Part shown: positions 26,500 through 29,643 of the stretch, piece after piece
How the letters are laid out: every line of letters begins with the position of its first letter
How positions within the stretch are numbered: position 1 is the first letter of the stretch
Origin: Gammaproteobacteria bacterium
GTDB taxonomy: Bacteria > Pseudomonadota > Gammaproteobacteria > Eutrophobiales > Eutrophobiaceae
Length of the DNA stretch: 45,439 bases
Direction: 5' to 3'
NCBI GenBank assembly: GCA_021773245.1
Contig: JAJFKK010000165.1
Span: 1-45,439, forward strand
Notes under the pieces: model-generated
Database searches by the model: none
Seen by the model: the letters and a program-made list of their open reading frames with translations, nothing else
What the model was told of the DNA's origin: nothing
Position numbers and translations under genes: made by a program

Positions 26500-28314
26500 G
26501 TGGATCATAATATATTAATATCTATTGCAAGCATTGGCATACTTGGCATTGGCTGCCAGTGGCTCGCATGGTGGGCACGACTACCAGCAATTCTTTTTTT
26601 ATTAATAGCCGGAATTGTTGTTGGCCCTGTCTTTGAGTATTTTAATCTAAGCTATCTTGATCCTGACGCTTTATTTGGTCAGCTACTTTTTCCTATTGTT
26701 TCCTTATCTGTTGCAGTCATTCTTTTTGAAGGAAGTTTAACCCTTAAGTTTGAAGATATTAAAGGTCATGGGAAGACCGTAAGAAATTTAATTTCAATTG
26801 GCGCGATTCTTACTTGGCTTATCATAGCCTACAGTACACATTACTTAATAAATTTTCCTTTCGAGCTTGCATTTCTTTTTGGAGCAGTAGTAATTGTTAC
26901 TGGTCCGACTGTCATCATTCCTATGTTAAGAACTGTTCGTCCTAATGCCAAAATTACGAATGTACTGCGTTGGGAAGGCATCACTATTGATCCTCTTGGT
27001 GCTTTACTCGCCGTTTTGGTTTTTGATTTTATTATTTCAGGTCAACAAAATAATGCTTTAGGTACAATTGTAATTACCTTTGGAAAAATAATATTAACCG
27101 GTTTCTCTATCGGCTTTATTAATGGTTGGTTTTTAGGTGAATTATTACGTAAACAACTCGTACCTCAATACTTGCGTAATGTTATTACGTTAATTACGGT
27201 ATCTGCCGTTTATGTTTTATCTGACACGATTGAACTTGAATCCGGTTTACTCGCTGTTACGGTCATGGGTATGACTATGGCAAACATGAAAGAAATGGAT
27301 ATCAATGACATACTCGATTTTAAAGAGAGTTTAAGCCTGTTATTAATATCAGGCCTTTTTATTATTCTTGCAGCACGAATTGAATTTTACCAATTTATTC
27401 AAATTGGCTGGCCAGCTTTAGGTATCCTTGCTATCACAATGTTAGTCGCAAGACCTATTTCTGTATTCGTTTCTTCATTCGGCTCAGACTTATCATTTAA
27501 TGAAAAGCTGATGATTTCCTGGATAGGCCCACGAGGAATCGTTGCCGCAGCAGTATCCGCCTTATTCGCATTACGCCTTGAAAATGCAGGTTATGTAGAA
27601 GCGGCTTTACTTGTTCCTCTTACTTTTCTTATCATCATTGGTACTGTCGTCATACAAAGTGCAACGGCAAGTTATATTGCTATTTTATTAAAAGTACGTG
27701 AACCCTCACCAACAGGAATATTAATTATCGGTGCAGGTAATGTTGCACGCGCAATTGGCAAAGAACTTCAAGCTCAAGGTTTCAAAATTGTGCTAACTGA
27801 TAGCACATGGGAAAATACCAGCCTGGCTCGTATGGAAGGTTTAGAAACTTATTACGGCAATCCTATCTCAGAACATGCTGACAGAAATCTCAACTTACTT
27901 GGATTAGGAAAAGTACTGGCTATGTCTGGAAGAGGCAGCCTCGATACCTTGGCCTGTTTAAGATTTAAATCTGAATTTGGTGTAAACAACGTTTACGAAT
28001 TAAAAACCACTCGTGAAAAACATATTTCGGATAAACACATTATTTCTACCCGACATCGGGGTTATGAACTTTTCGGTGAAGATTATGATTATGGTAATTT
28101 GGCCTATCGTTTGAGAAACGGAGCTGAATTAAAAAGCACTCAACTAAGTGATGAATTTACCTTTGAACAATATCTAAAAGAATACGGCGAACGCGTTATC
28201 CCTATGTTTGCTATAGATAATAAGCAGCGATTACAAATTTTTGTATCAAATGGAACGATGAAACCTGAATCAGGATGGATAATCACCGGAATGATTCAAG
28301 CCAAACCAGCATAA
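26500..28314 (+). CDS. CPA-type cation:proton antiporter with TrkA-N (RCK) domain
   Basis: A 604-residue membrane protein. About 12-13 membrane segments cover residues 1-400 with the Na+/H+ exchanger-like fold (ARLPAILFLLIAGIVVGPVF, DPLGALLAVLVFDF, WIGPRGIVAAAVSALFAL). A cytoplasmic NAD-binding TrkA-N domain follows from about 407 (GILIIGAGNVARAIGKELQA). It should exchange Na+ or K+ for protons, gated by nucleotide. The start is GTG at 26500 with AGGGATAAAT upstream. Ion specificity cannot be read from sequence. Confidence 0.9.
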   Translation: MDHNILISIASIGILGIGCQWLAWWARLPAILFLLIAGIVVGPVFEYFNLSYLDPDALFGQLLFPIVSLSVAVILFEGSLTLKFEDIKGHGKTVRNLISIGAILTWLIIAYSTHYLINFPFELAFLFGAVVIVTGPTVIIPMLRTVRPNAKITNVLRWEGITIDPLGALLAVLVFDFIISGQQNNALGTIVITFGKIILTGFSIGFINGWFLGELLRKQLVPQYLRNVITLITVSAVYVLSDTIELESGLLAVTVMGMTMANMKEMDINDILDFKESLSLLLISGLFIILAARIEFYQFIQIGWPALGILAITMLVARPISVFVSSFGSDLSFNEKLMISWIGPRGIVAAAVSALFALRLENAGYVEAALLVPLTFLIIIGTVVIQSATASYIAILLKVREPSPTGILIIGAGNVARAIGKELQAQGFKIVLTDSTWENTSLARMEGLETYYGNPISEHADRNLNLLGLGKVLAMSGRGSLDTLACLRFKSEFGVNNVYELKTTREKHISDKHIISTRHRGYELFGEDYDYGNLAYRLRNGAELKSTQLSDEFTFEQYLKEYGERVIPMFAIDNKQRLQIFVSNGTMKPESGWIITGMIQAKPA

Positions 28315-28351
28315 ATAATACGTATTCAAAACCTTGAATAGCCTAGATTAC

Positions 28352-28367
28352 TGTGACAACTGTCACA
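28352..28367. promoter_or_regulatory. CRP/Vfr-type binding site 1
   Basis: TGTGA-CAACTG-TCACA is a perfect match to the CRP half-sites with a 6-bp spacer, and is itself a 7-bp inverted repeat with AC at the centre. It lies in the gap between two genes that end towards each other, so it cannot serve either flanking gene; it would serve the candidate small RNA. Confidence 0.6.
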
Positions 28368-28401
28368 AAATAACGACAGTTACAGTATATCTACATAAAA
28401 C

Positions 28402-28417
28402 TGTGAACCTCGTCACA
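28402..28417. promoter_or_regulatory. CRP/Vfr-type binding site 2
   Basis: TGTGA-ACCTCG-TCACA, again a perfect CRP half-site pair, centred 50 bp downstream of site 1 and about 47 bp upstream of the predicted transcription start of the candidate RNA. The spacing is close to, but not exactly, a class II activator position. Confidence 0.65.
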
Positions 28418-28444
28418 GCCAACTTTCAATCTCTACACTAGACT

Positions 28445-28450
28445 TATAAT
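28445..28450 (+). promoter_or_regulatory. Predicted -10 box (TATAAT) of the candidate small RNA
   Basis: A perfect TATAAT with only a weak -35 (TTTCAA-like) upstream, as expected for an activator-dependent promoter. It directs transcription towards the hairpin at 28498-28557. Confidence 0.5.
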
Positions 28451-28456
28451 CACTAG

Positions 28457-28557
28457 CTTAAATAAATTTATCCTCCTTATAGATGATTGTGAGCAAAGTC
28501 TGGGGATACACATAACCTTCCTCCCCCATGTGAGTTATGTGTCTCCAGGCTTTTTTT
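28457..28557 (+). ncRNA. Candidate CRP-controlled small RNA with anti-Shine-Dalgarno motifs
   Basis: A predicted transcript of about 100 nt in the 261-bp gap between convergent genes. It has an unstructured 5' part with CCTCCTTA (28472-28479), identical to the last eight bases of 16S rRNA and complementary to TAAGGAGG. Then follows an imperfect stem (ACACATAAC with GTTATGTGT, plus lower pairs) whose 17-nt loop holds TTCCTCCCCC, and a run of seven T. No open reading frame with a ribosome binding site fits. Function by pairing to ribosome binding sites, as known for the CRP-activated CyaR RNA of enterobacteria, is inference; sequence homology to CyaR is not claimed. Confidence 0.5.
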
Positions 28558-28575
28558 ATGCCTGTAATATTTAGT

Positions 28576-29643
28576 TCAAAAGTAAGTAACGAATATATAG
28601 ACAAAAACACTGAATGCGATAGCAAACCCTACCGCTAATGGCAGATAAAAATTATTTTTTTTCTCTTTCGTCTCACGACTATTAGACTTTTTATTATAAC
28701 TGCTGGCAGCTAAACGCCATTGCGTTTGAGTAGACACACTTGGATCTTCCAACATAGCACGCCATTCCTGCACGGATTGAGGTCTTTCCTTATGGTTACT
28801 TCTTAAAGAATGTTCAATTGCTCTTAATAAGAAAGTTGAAAACCGCTTACTGTGTTTATCTAACTCATTCCAAATTTCATCAATCGCTTGCTCACCAGTA
28901 TGTCTATTCCGAAATGTGGAATCCATCGGTGGTTCACCAGTTATCGCTTTATAACACGTTGCTCCTAAGGAATAGATATCCGTCCAGGGTCCCTGCATAT
29001 CACTTCTGGCATAATACTGCTCAAAAGGTGCATAACCGGGCGTAACAACCTTGGTTAACGTCATTGTCTCTTCACCTATTGCCTGTCGTGCCGATCCAAA
29101 ATCCAATAAAATAGCTGTGCCATCCTCACGAATAAATATATTTCCTGGCTTGATGTCTCTGTGAATAAATCTAGCTTCATGCAGTACTTCCAAGCCATCA
29201 ATCAGGCCGAGCAACAAACCCATTAGTTCTTCTTCACTAGGTTGCCCATCTCGAAGCAGCTTTTCATGGAAACTTATTCCATGTTCATAACTCATCACCA
29301 TGTAAGCTGTATTATTTTCTTCAAATACTGAATAAACACGGACAATATTATTGTGGTTGAATTTTGAAAGTGTTCGAGCTTCTCGTATGAAACGCTCCAT
29401 GCCCCATACCAGTTTTTCACTCATCTCCTTTGTAAGCGTCTGGAGAGTATAATCATTACCACGCCCAGCAATATCACGAGGCATAAATTCCTTTATAGCT
29501 ACTTCTCGCTCAAGGTTATTATCTTGCGCTAAATAGGTAATACCAAAACCACCTTGTCCAAGCACACCTTTTATGGTGTAACACTGCAATTCATAACCGG
29601 CGGGTAAAGCTTTAGGTTCAATCTTTGAAGGTCTTTCAGACAT
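28576..29643 (-). CDS. Membrane-anchored Ser/Thr protein kinase
   Basis: A 355-residue Hanks-type kinase: glycine loop LGQGGFGITYLAQD, Lys in EVAIKEFMP, catalytic loop FIHRDIKPGNIF, DFG in LLDFGSARQ and YAPFEQY in the activation segment. The C-terminus has one hydrophobic segment (PLAVGFAIAFSVFVYIFVTY, about 332-352), leaving no extracytoplasmic domain of any size. It is paralogous to the 13639-15300 kinase through the kinase domain only. No substrate or phosphatase gene is adjacent. Confidence 0.92.
   Translation of the reverse strand: MSERPSKIEPKALPAGYELQCYTIKGVLGQGGFGITYLAQDNNLEREVAIKEFMPRDIAGRGNDYTLQTLTKEMSEKLVWGMERFIREARTLSKFNHNNIVRVYSVFEENNTAYMVMSYEHGISFHEKLLRDGQPSEEELMGLLLGLIDGLEVLHEARFIHRDIKPGNIFIREDGTAILLDFGSARQAIGEETMTLTKVVTPGYAPFEQYYARSDMQGPWTDIYSLGATCYKAITGEPPMDSTFRNRHTGEQAIDEIWNELDKHSKRFSTFLLRAIEHSLRSNHKERPQSVQEWRAMLEDPSVSTQTQWRLAASSYNKKSNSRETKEKKNNFYLPLAVGFAIAFSVFVYIFVTYF

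Follow-up and report, generated by a model that had tools for sequence, protein, structure and literature searches.

A predicted CRP-activated small RNA with two anti-Shine–Dalgarno motifs in mostly uncultured Gammaproteobacteria

Does the 261-bp gap between two converging genes of a gammaproteobacterium hold a gene of its own and, if so, what could that gene control? The window analysed here is the whole stretch of DNA, 45,439 nucleotides long. In the gap within it, a first-pass annotation had marked two perfect TGTGA-N6-TCACA sites, a TATAAT, a stem followed by seven Ts and two anti-Shine–Dalgarno (anti-SD) motifs, and had proposed an orphan, free-standing small RNA (sRNA) driven by CRP. All of these motifs lie where it placed them. 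Here, we report a comparative analysis of the locus. Conservation, covariation and promoter geometry support a CRP-driven sRNA with two anti-SD motifs more strongly than first proposed, and we conclude that the gap probably contains a free-standing gene for a trans-acting sRNA of about 107 nt, predicted to be activated by CRP, to pair with the Shine–Dalgarno (SD) regions of several mRNAs and to block their translation. The predicted sRNA is conserved mainly among a set of related gammaproteobacteria, most of them uncultured, and occurs rarely in five further families of this class; it is no orphan, as related copies were found in other genomes by DNA search and covariance models. Synteny and covariation allow the family, found neither in Rfam nor in the open-licence PubMed Central literature searched, to be traced in Thiotrichaceae-like Gammaproteobacteria and in some others of the class; its regulator, promoter geometry and seed are open to immediate testing. 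In this family the anti-SD loop design, for which Alphaproteobacteria supply the best descriptions, appears to be controlled by CRP, and the family provides a case for asking whether anti-SD loop sRNAs share an ancestry or arose repeatedly.

Locus and feature map

The window corresponds to contig C74 of a 2.73-Mb assembly in 183 contigs that is 97% complete. The limits of the two converging ORFs define the gap as 28315–28575, in agreement with the length first given (Table 1). The nearest relatives of the antiporter on its 5′ side come from MAGs, two of them labelled Thiotrichaceae and others Gammaproteobacteria or Legionellales; the NCBI lineage of one of these relatives is Thiotrichales.

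Table 1 Features of the predicted sRNA locus (positions in the window)
Feature	Position	Strand	Basis or remark
Na/H-exchanger-type antiporter gene, TrkA_N domain	26500–28314	+	5′ neighbour of the sRNA
Distal CRP site TGTGACAACTGTCACA, predicted centre −91.5	28352–28367	+	exact palindrome
Proximal CRP site TGTGAACCTCGTCACA, predicted centre −41.5 (class II)	28402–28417	+	exact; start 37 bp 5′ of the −10 in 23/31 matches
−10 hexamer TAGACT	28439–28444	+	alignment and scan
Predicted sRNA, about 107 nt	28451–28557	+	start predicted from −10 box and CRP spacing; T-run taken as the end
Weak 5′ hairpin (AUUUAU / AUAGAU), CCUCCUU loop	28466–28484	+	predicted fold
Anti-SD seed 1, CCTCCTTA	28472–28479	+	CCTCC invariant in the 11-row alignment; 33/40 members
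Terminator hairpin, loop presenting the second anti-SD	28495–28553	+	fold; 16/18 pairs changed on both sides
Anti-SD seed 2, CTTCCTCCCCC	28517–28527	+	CCYCC run in the loop side of 40/40 members
T7 run of the intrinsic terminator	28551–28557	+	sequence
Protein kinase gene	28576–29643	−	converging neighbour

Conservation and distribution

By DNA search, the block is present in 10 of 96 genomes, counting that of the window. Eleven aligned sequences (alignment A3), one of them located beside a 64%-identical antiporter (L023), gave a covariance model, R1, with matches in 27 of the 53 genomes and 14 of the 18 genera of the family to which the window belongs; across the class it matched in 7 of 369 genomes, 3 of them outside this family. 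A wider model, R2, was built from 31 matches. At E ≤ 1e-3 it matched in 32 of the 53 family genomes (the order comprises the same 53), 30 of which we interpret as carrying this sRNA and two, G045 and G050, as carrying a sigmaE-type RNA; matches with E above about 1e-7 were interpreted where loci or sequences had been retrieved. Class-wide, R2 matched in 27 of 369 genomes at E ≤ 1e-3 and in 11 at E ≤ 1e-7, the latter comprising four from the same family and seven from five other families. Six of these seven have a CRP site, the exception being G118, in which the RNA is present and the CRP site absent. In the order of G264, matches at E ≤ 1e-5 occur in 5 of 36 genomes, all with a CRP site. The phylum search returned 5 of 398 genomes at E ≤ 1e-5: the genome of the window, one with ErsA (G213) and three of one other family. 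These last three matches have no CRP site and represent RNAs that presumably resemble the Neisseria NmsR siblings. Within the genus, R2 found no match in 3 of 12 genomes, and neither R1 nor R2 matched in G003, which is 85% complete.

Some genomes carry more than one match. A second hairpin RNA match lies about 220 bp from the first in G019 (L118 and L124) and G021 (L163), and G002 has two copies on different contigs (L105 and L123) that share about 400 identical bases (L014, L015) within 3-kb stretches that differ as wholes.

The surrounding genes vary. In 22 of 38 loci, family f140 included, an antiporter gene precedes the sRNA in the same orientation (one is identified by a 25-residue match only, and two are tandem copies in G019), and a kinase gene lies downstream in nine of the 38, one recognized by 17 residues. 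By reading, the sRNA follows relatives of the window's 141-aa ORF in L106, L110 and L114, and relatives of its ketoacyl synthase in L108, L112, L120 and L161; these two are the next genes of the same cluster in the window. In L136 (f92) and L126 (f67), also by reading, it is found between ROK kinase-like and response regulator-like genes. The sRNA stands beside varied genes and not one neighbour, and therefore appears to be an independent gene. A point against the proposal is that an sRNA copy is near the antiporter in only 5 of 80 named antiporter loci, and that none was found near four close antiporter relatives of 73–78% identity (L019, L020, L021 and L088).

CRP sites and promoter geometry

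The perfect TGTGA-N6-TCACA pattern occurs at nine sites in the 2.73-Mb assembly, and a reversed control pattern at none; both sites annotated in the gap are exact. The TATAAT at 28445–28450 exists too, but we rejected it as the −10 box because it is not conserved and would place CRP at −47.5. The conserved hexamer is TAGACT, which in relatives is mostly TAGACT, TAGAAT, TAAACT or TACACT. With this hexamer as the −10, the predicted centres of the CRP sites, −41.5 and −91.5, correspond to the classical class II layout. In a scan of 31 matches, in which the best-matching −10 hexamer was picked automatically, a CRP-like site begins exactly 37 bp before that hexamer in 23 (equivalent to −41.5), and 22 have a further site, matching at 8/10 or better, at 39–52 bp, or about four or five turns, above the proximal one. 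Two further copies, from G019, have the second site 31–32 bp above the proximal one, and in G028 (L120) and G038 (L108) the distance from the start of the CRP site to the −10 is 55 bp instead of 37 bp.

Neither R1 nor R2 contains promoter sequence. Counted at a fixed threshold (at least 9/10 at −75 to −45 of the model start), a CRP site precedes 34 of 39 matches at E ≤ 1e-7. At E ≤ 1e-5 it precedes 36 of 49, and 24 of the 37 that lie outside the R1 seed; the controls gave 0.1% of shuffled upstream sequence and 1 of 1,516 other stretches of the loci. Thirteen of the 49 matches at E ≤ 1e-5 have no such site within this interval. Of these, L108 and L120 carry a 9/10 site, but at −78, L267, whose match begins at model position 25, carries a 10/10 site at −88, and L124 reaches 8/10 only; L126, three Neisseria-like matches and L137–L141, one of which is ErsA, are also counted here. 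Because ErsA and Neisseria-like RNAs are among them, R2 is not specific among matches without a CRP site at this threshold. At 17 places weaker than 1e-7 in the class search, in 17 genomes, there is no CRP site of 9/10 upstream; ErsA and anti-hemB relatives are among these places, and one of the genomes, G296, also has a strong R2 match. The only weak R2 places in the family that have CRP sites are L163 (G021, E 9e-5) and L161 (G047, E 7e-4).

Another perfect CRP-site pair, 41 bp apart, lies between a diverging GGDEF-like gene and 141-aa ORF (L003/L004, G000:C61:8220–8276).

Predicted RNA structure and anti-SD motifs

The stem and T7 run first noted fold well: the segment 28453–28560 reaches −31.9 kcal/mol (z −4.4), with 0 of 200 shuffles as good, and the mean z is −4.9 over 41 sequences (60 shuffles each; L161 and L163 included). 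In the model-fitted alignment, 88.3% of the terminator stem cells are paired, and the count of pairs changed on both sides (Table 1) compares with 12.5 in shuffles, 6 of 500 of which reached 16; the stem covariation is 0.607, a value reached by none of 500 shuffles, with at most 0.105 after sliding. Plain MAFFT alignments point the same way, with 6 of 18 pairs double-changed in the 11 sequences of A3 (2 of 500 shuffles; covariation 0.246 versus at most 0.114 when slid) and 9 of 18 predicted pairs changed on both sides in an alignment of 10 sequences. Two larger MAFFT alignments, with 31 and 14 sequences, placed the 5′ hairpin wrongly and were excluded from the counts. The first-pass annotation had advised looking in relatives for a conserved block with covariation in the stem, and this was found: the terminator stem covaries around a C-rich loop. 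Over 17 of the 18 terminator pairs, G-U cells outnumber A-C cells by 33 to 6, which favours the + strand; these counts and the side of the T-run also speak against a minus-strand reading with a GGA loop resembling a CsrA sponge.

The two motifs differ in how they are kept. The octamer CCTCCTTA, initially taken as the seed, is present here and not conserved as an octamer; its core, CCTCC, recurs in the 5′ part of most members. Seed 2 includes TCCTCCCCC at 28519–28527 and reads CCCTCCTCCCCC or similar in relatives. Its predicted unpaired probability is 0.73 here and averages 0.97 in the 37 of 41 sequences in which the motif was found. Across the 5′ regions, folding falls below the shuffle mean in 35 of 41 loci (mean z −1.0), and the 5′ hairpin has four pairs, one with a double change (MAFFT alignment of 10). 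The predicted 5′ hairpin is clear in some genera and weakly supported overall.

Proposed mechanism and candidate targets

In our model, cAMP–CRP, a Vfr-type protein, would bind at −41.5 and −91.5 and activate transcription from about 28451, a start deduced from the conserved geometry. The RNA would offer CCUCC motifs in the 5′ loop and terminator loop of its predicted fold, probably together with Hfq, for pairing with the G-rich SD regions of several mRNAs; by analogy with CyaR and NfeR1, ribosome entry would be blocked, and high cAMP would lead to repression of a set of genes. The best solved relative of the genome's CRP is Vfr (E 3.5e-78). Hfq is encoded in the genome, and the sRNA is probably Hfq-dependent.

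The target pattern GGGGAGG-N3-10-ATG occurs at eight places in the window's own genome, one of which lies antisense to the sRNA. Long ORFs follow three of the places and by reading are PQQ-dependent alcohol dehydrogenase-, autotransporter- and aldehyde dehydrogenase-like; the region upstream of the last is G+C-rich, and this ORF could derive from contamination. Compared across 11 of the 12 genomes of the genus, with G003 and the sRNA antisense places left out, the places include three groups that each recur between two genomes, two of them inside longer open frames and one at a likely gene start (L234/L242). No group is shared by three or more of these 11 genomes. Target prediction yields candidate places in single genomes and no conserved set; the catabolic genes among them are suggestive as predicted targets.

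G003 contains 45 copies of GGGGAGGACGATATATG, one copy occurs in G009, and a variant in G004 precedes an ORF that reads as transposase-like; the copies are perhaps a transposon family.

Alternative readings and relation to known sRNAs

Several other readings of the locus have to be weighed. A hairpin with T7 downstream of the antiporter gene could end the antiporter transcript, and the gap might then hold a mere intrinsic terminator between converging genes, with the other motifs there by chance; this is highly improbable given that CRP sites, −10 box, seed and loop co-occur across genera and that the RNA is also found beside other genes. That the locus encodes a short leader peptide or a small protein is scarcely credible: the close species L005, L006 and L007 do share a 10-codon frame (ATGATTGTGAGC...TAA), but the other rows of A3 lack it or show it altered and include gaps that would break a reading frame, and stem substitutions follow base pairing. 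Repeated motifs are typical of sponges, and this feature, with the lack of a target group common to three or more genus genomes, would suit a C-rich RNA whose main role is to sponge up a protein or a second RNA and not to repress mRNAs. CCUCC, however, is the anti-SD core of 16S rRNA. In NfeR1, moreover, three anti-SD loop motifs act on mRNAs, according to the excerpts of its description consulted (PMC10746234), and we regard the sponge as rather improbable.

A stronger rival, still doubtful, is that the RNA is a divergent member of the known C-rich-loop sRNAs (ErsA/Pseudomon-1, anti-hemB, ar14/cuckoo or the Neisseria NmsR siblings) with its promoter changed. R2 weakly matches L137, an Rfam-positive ErsA (121 bits), and L146, an Rfam-positive anti-hemB (58 bits), as well as L139–L141, L153 and L159, which have sub-threshold anti-hemB or ar14 scores, L139 and L140 just under the anti-hemB cut-off; it also matches RNAs in three genomes that we take to be Neisseria-like. 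Against this, none of the Rfam models of CyaR, ar14, ErsA and anti-hemB reaches E ≤ 3 in any of 15 member loci, and among 19 loci there is one sub-threshold ErsA match (27.5 bits, E 0.25), to the second copy in L118. The sRNA falls below the Rfam cut-offs of ar14 (58.8 bits), ErsA/Pseudomon-1 (50 bits) and anti-hemB (49.5 bits), and neither L137 nor L146 carries a CRP site of at least 9/10.

The free-standing CRP-type sRNA that we favour thus has relatives in design. The Rfam search advised at the outset gave no family at gathering score over the whole window, and below threshold ctRNA_pND324 (E 1.1) and mir-1641 (E 0.53) matched the locus, STnc310 (E 0.26) the strand opposite the RNA of L109 and CopA (E 1.9) L120, all of which we regard as chance. 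Searches of the open-licence PubMed Central literature brought up no description of this RNA. The first-pass annotation had drawn a link to CyaR; descent from it is not borne out, as the CyaR model does not appear for the locus at E values up to 5, nor in the 15 member loci above. On our best reading, the sRNA may work like CyaR, the cuckoo RNAs and ErsA without being assigned to any of them by Rfam. The promoter of CyaR is CRP-activated, and the CRP sites and conserved geometry of the present locus suggest that its promoter may be so too; unlike in CyaR/RyeE of Enterobacteria, a second anti-SD motif lies in the terminator loop.

In the cuckoo/ar14/NfeR1 RNAs of Alphaproteobacteria, as far as the excerpts of PMC10746234 and PMC3927594 describe them, hairpins whose stems vary freely present anti-SD CCUCCUCCC motifs in their loops. 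These RNAs have three or four such motifs and are under LsrB/NtrC control. The present RNA shares the loop motifs and variable stem, but has two motifs and CRP sites; one strong hairpin fits the several-hairpin layout with CCUCCUCCC loops, and the weakly supported 5′ hairpin has a shorter CCUCC loop. ErsA/Pseudomon-1 (RF01719), sigma22-driven according to PMC5819304, and anti-hemB (RF02837) have a similar C-rich terminator hairpin, weakly matched by R2, whereas their members found here have no CRP site of 9/10. For Neisseria NmsRA/NmsRB, the excerpted account (PMC5362039) gives two anti-SD regions, one in a loop, and down-regulation of TCA-cycle mRNAs; our predicted RNA also has two anti-SD motifs. 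The Neisseria siblings differ from it in having three stem-loops, and the Neisseria-like matches in this survey lack a CRP site. These matches belong to no Rfam family at cut-off.

We tentatively suggest, as a possibility that is less probable than not, that anti-SD loop sRNAs form a class across Proteobacteria in which the promoter is exchanged around a constant RNA module made of a variable stem and a fixed C-rich loop, with CRP here, sigmaE-like control in ErsA/anti-hemB relatives and other regulators in the cuckoo RNAs; the present sRNA would be its carbon-status branch. One simple sigmaE-like pattern, GAACTT-N15-19-TCnnA, is absent from 28315–28470 of the window and from all 36 CRP-bearing matches. 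With GAACTT or AAACTT, the pattern, devised after inspecting the same loci, occurs in 9 of 23 weak R2 loci without a 9/10 CRP site (L132, L137–L139, L141, L142, L153, L159 and L162). Two genomes, G296 (L135, L153) and G013 (L106, L159), may hold both the CRP-driven and the sigmaE-like type.
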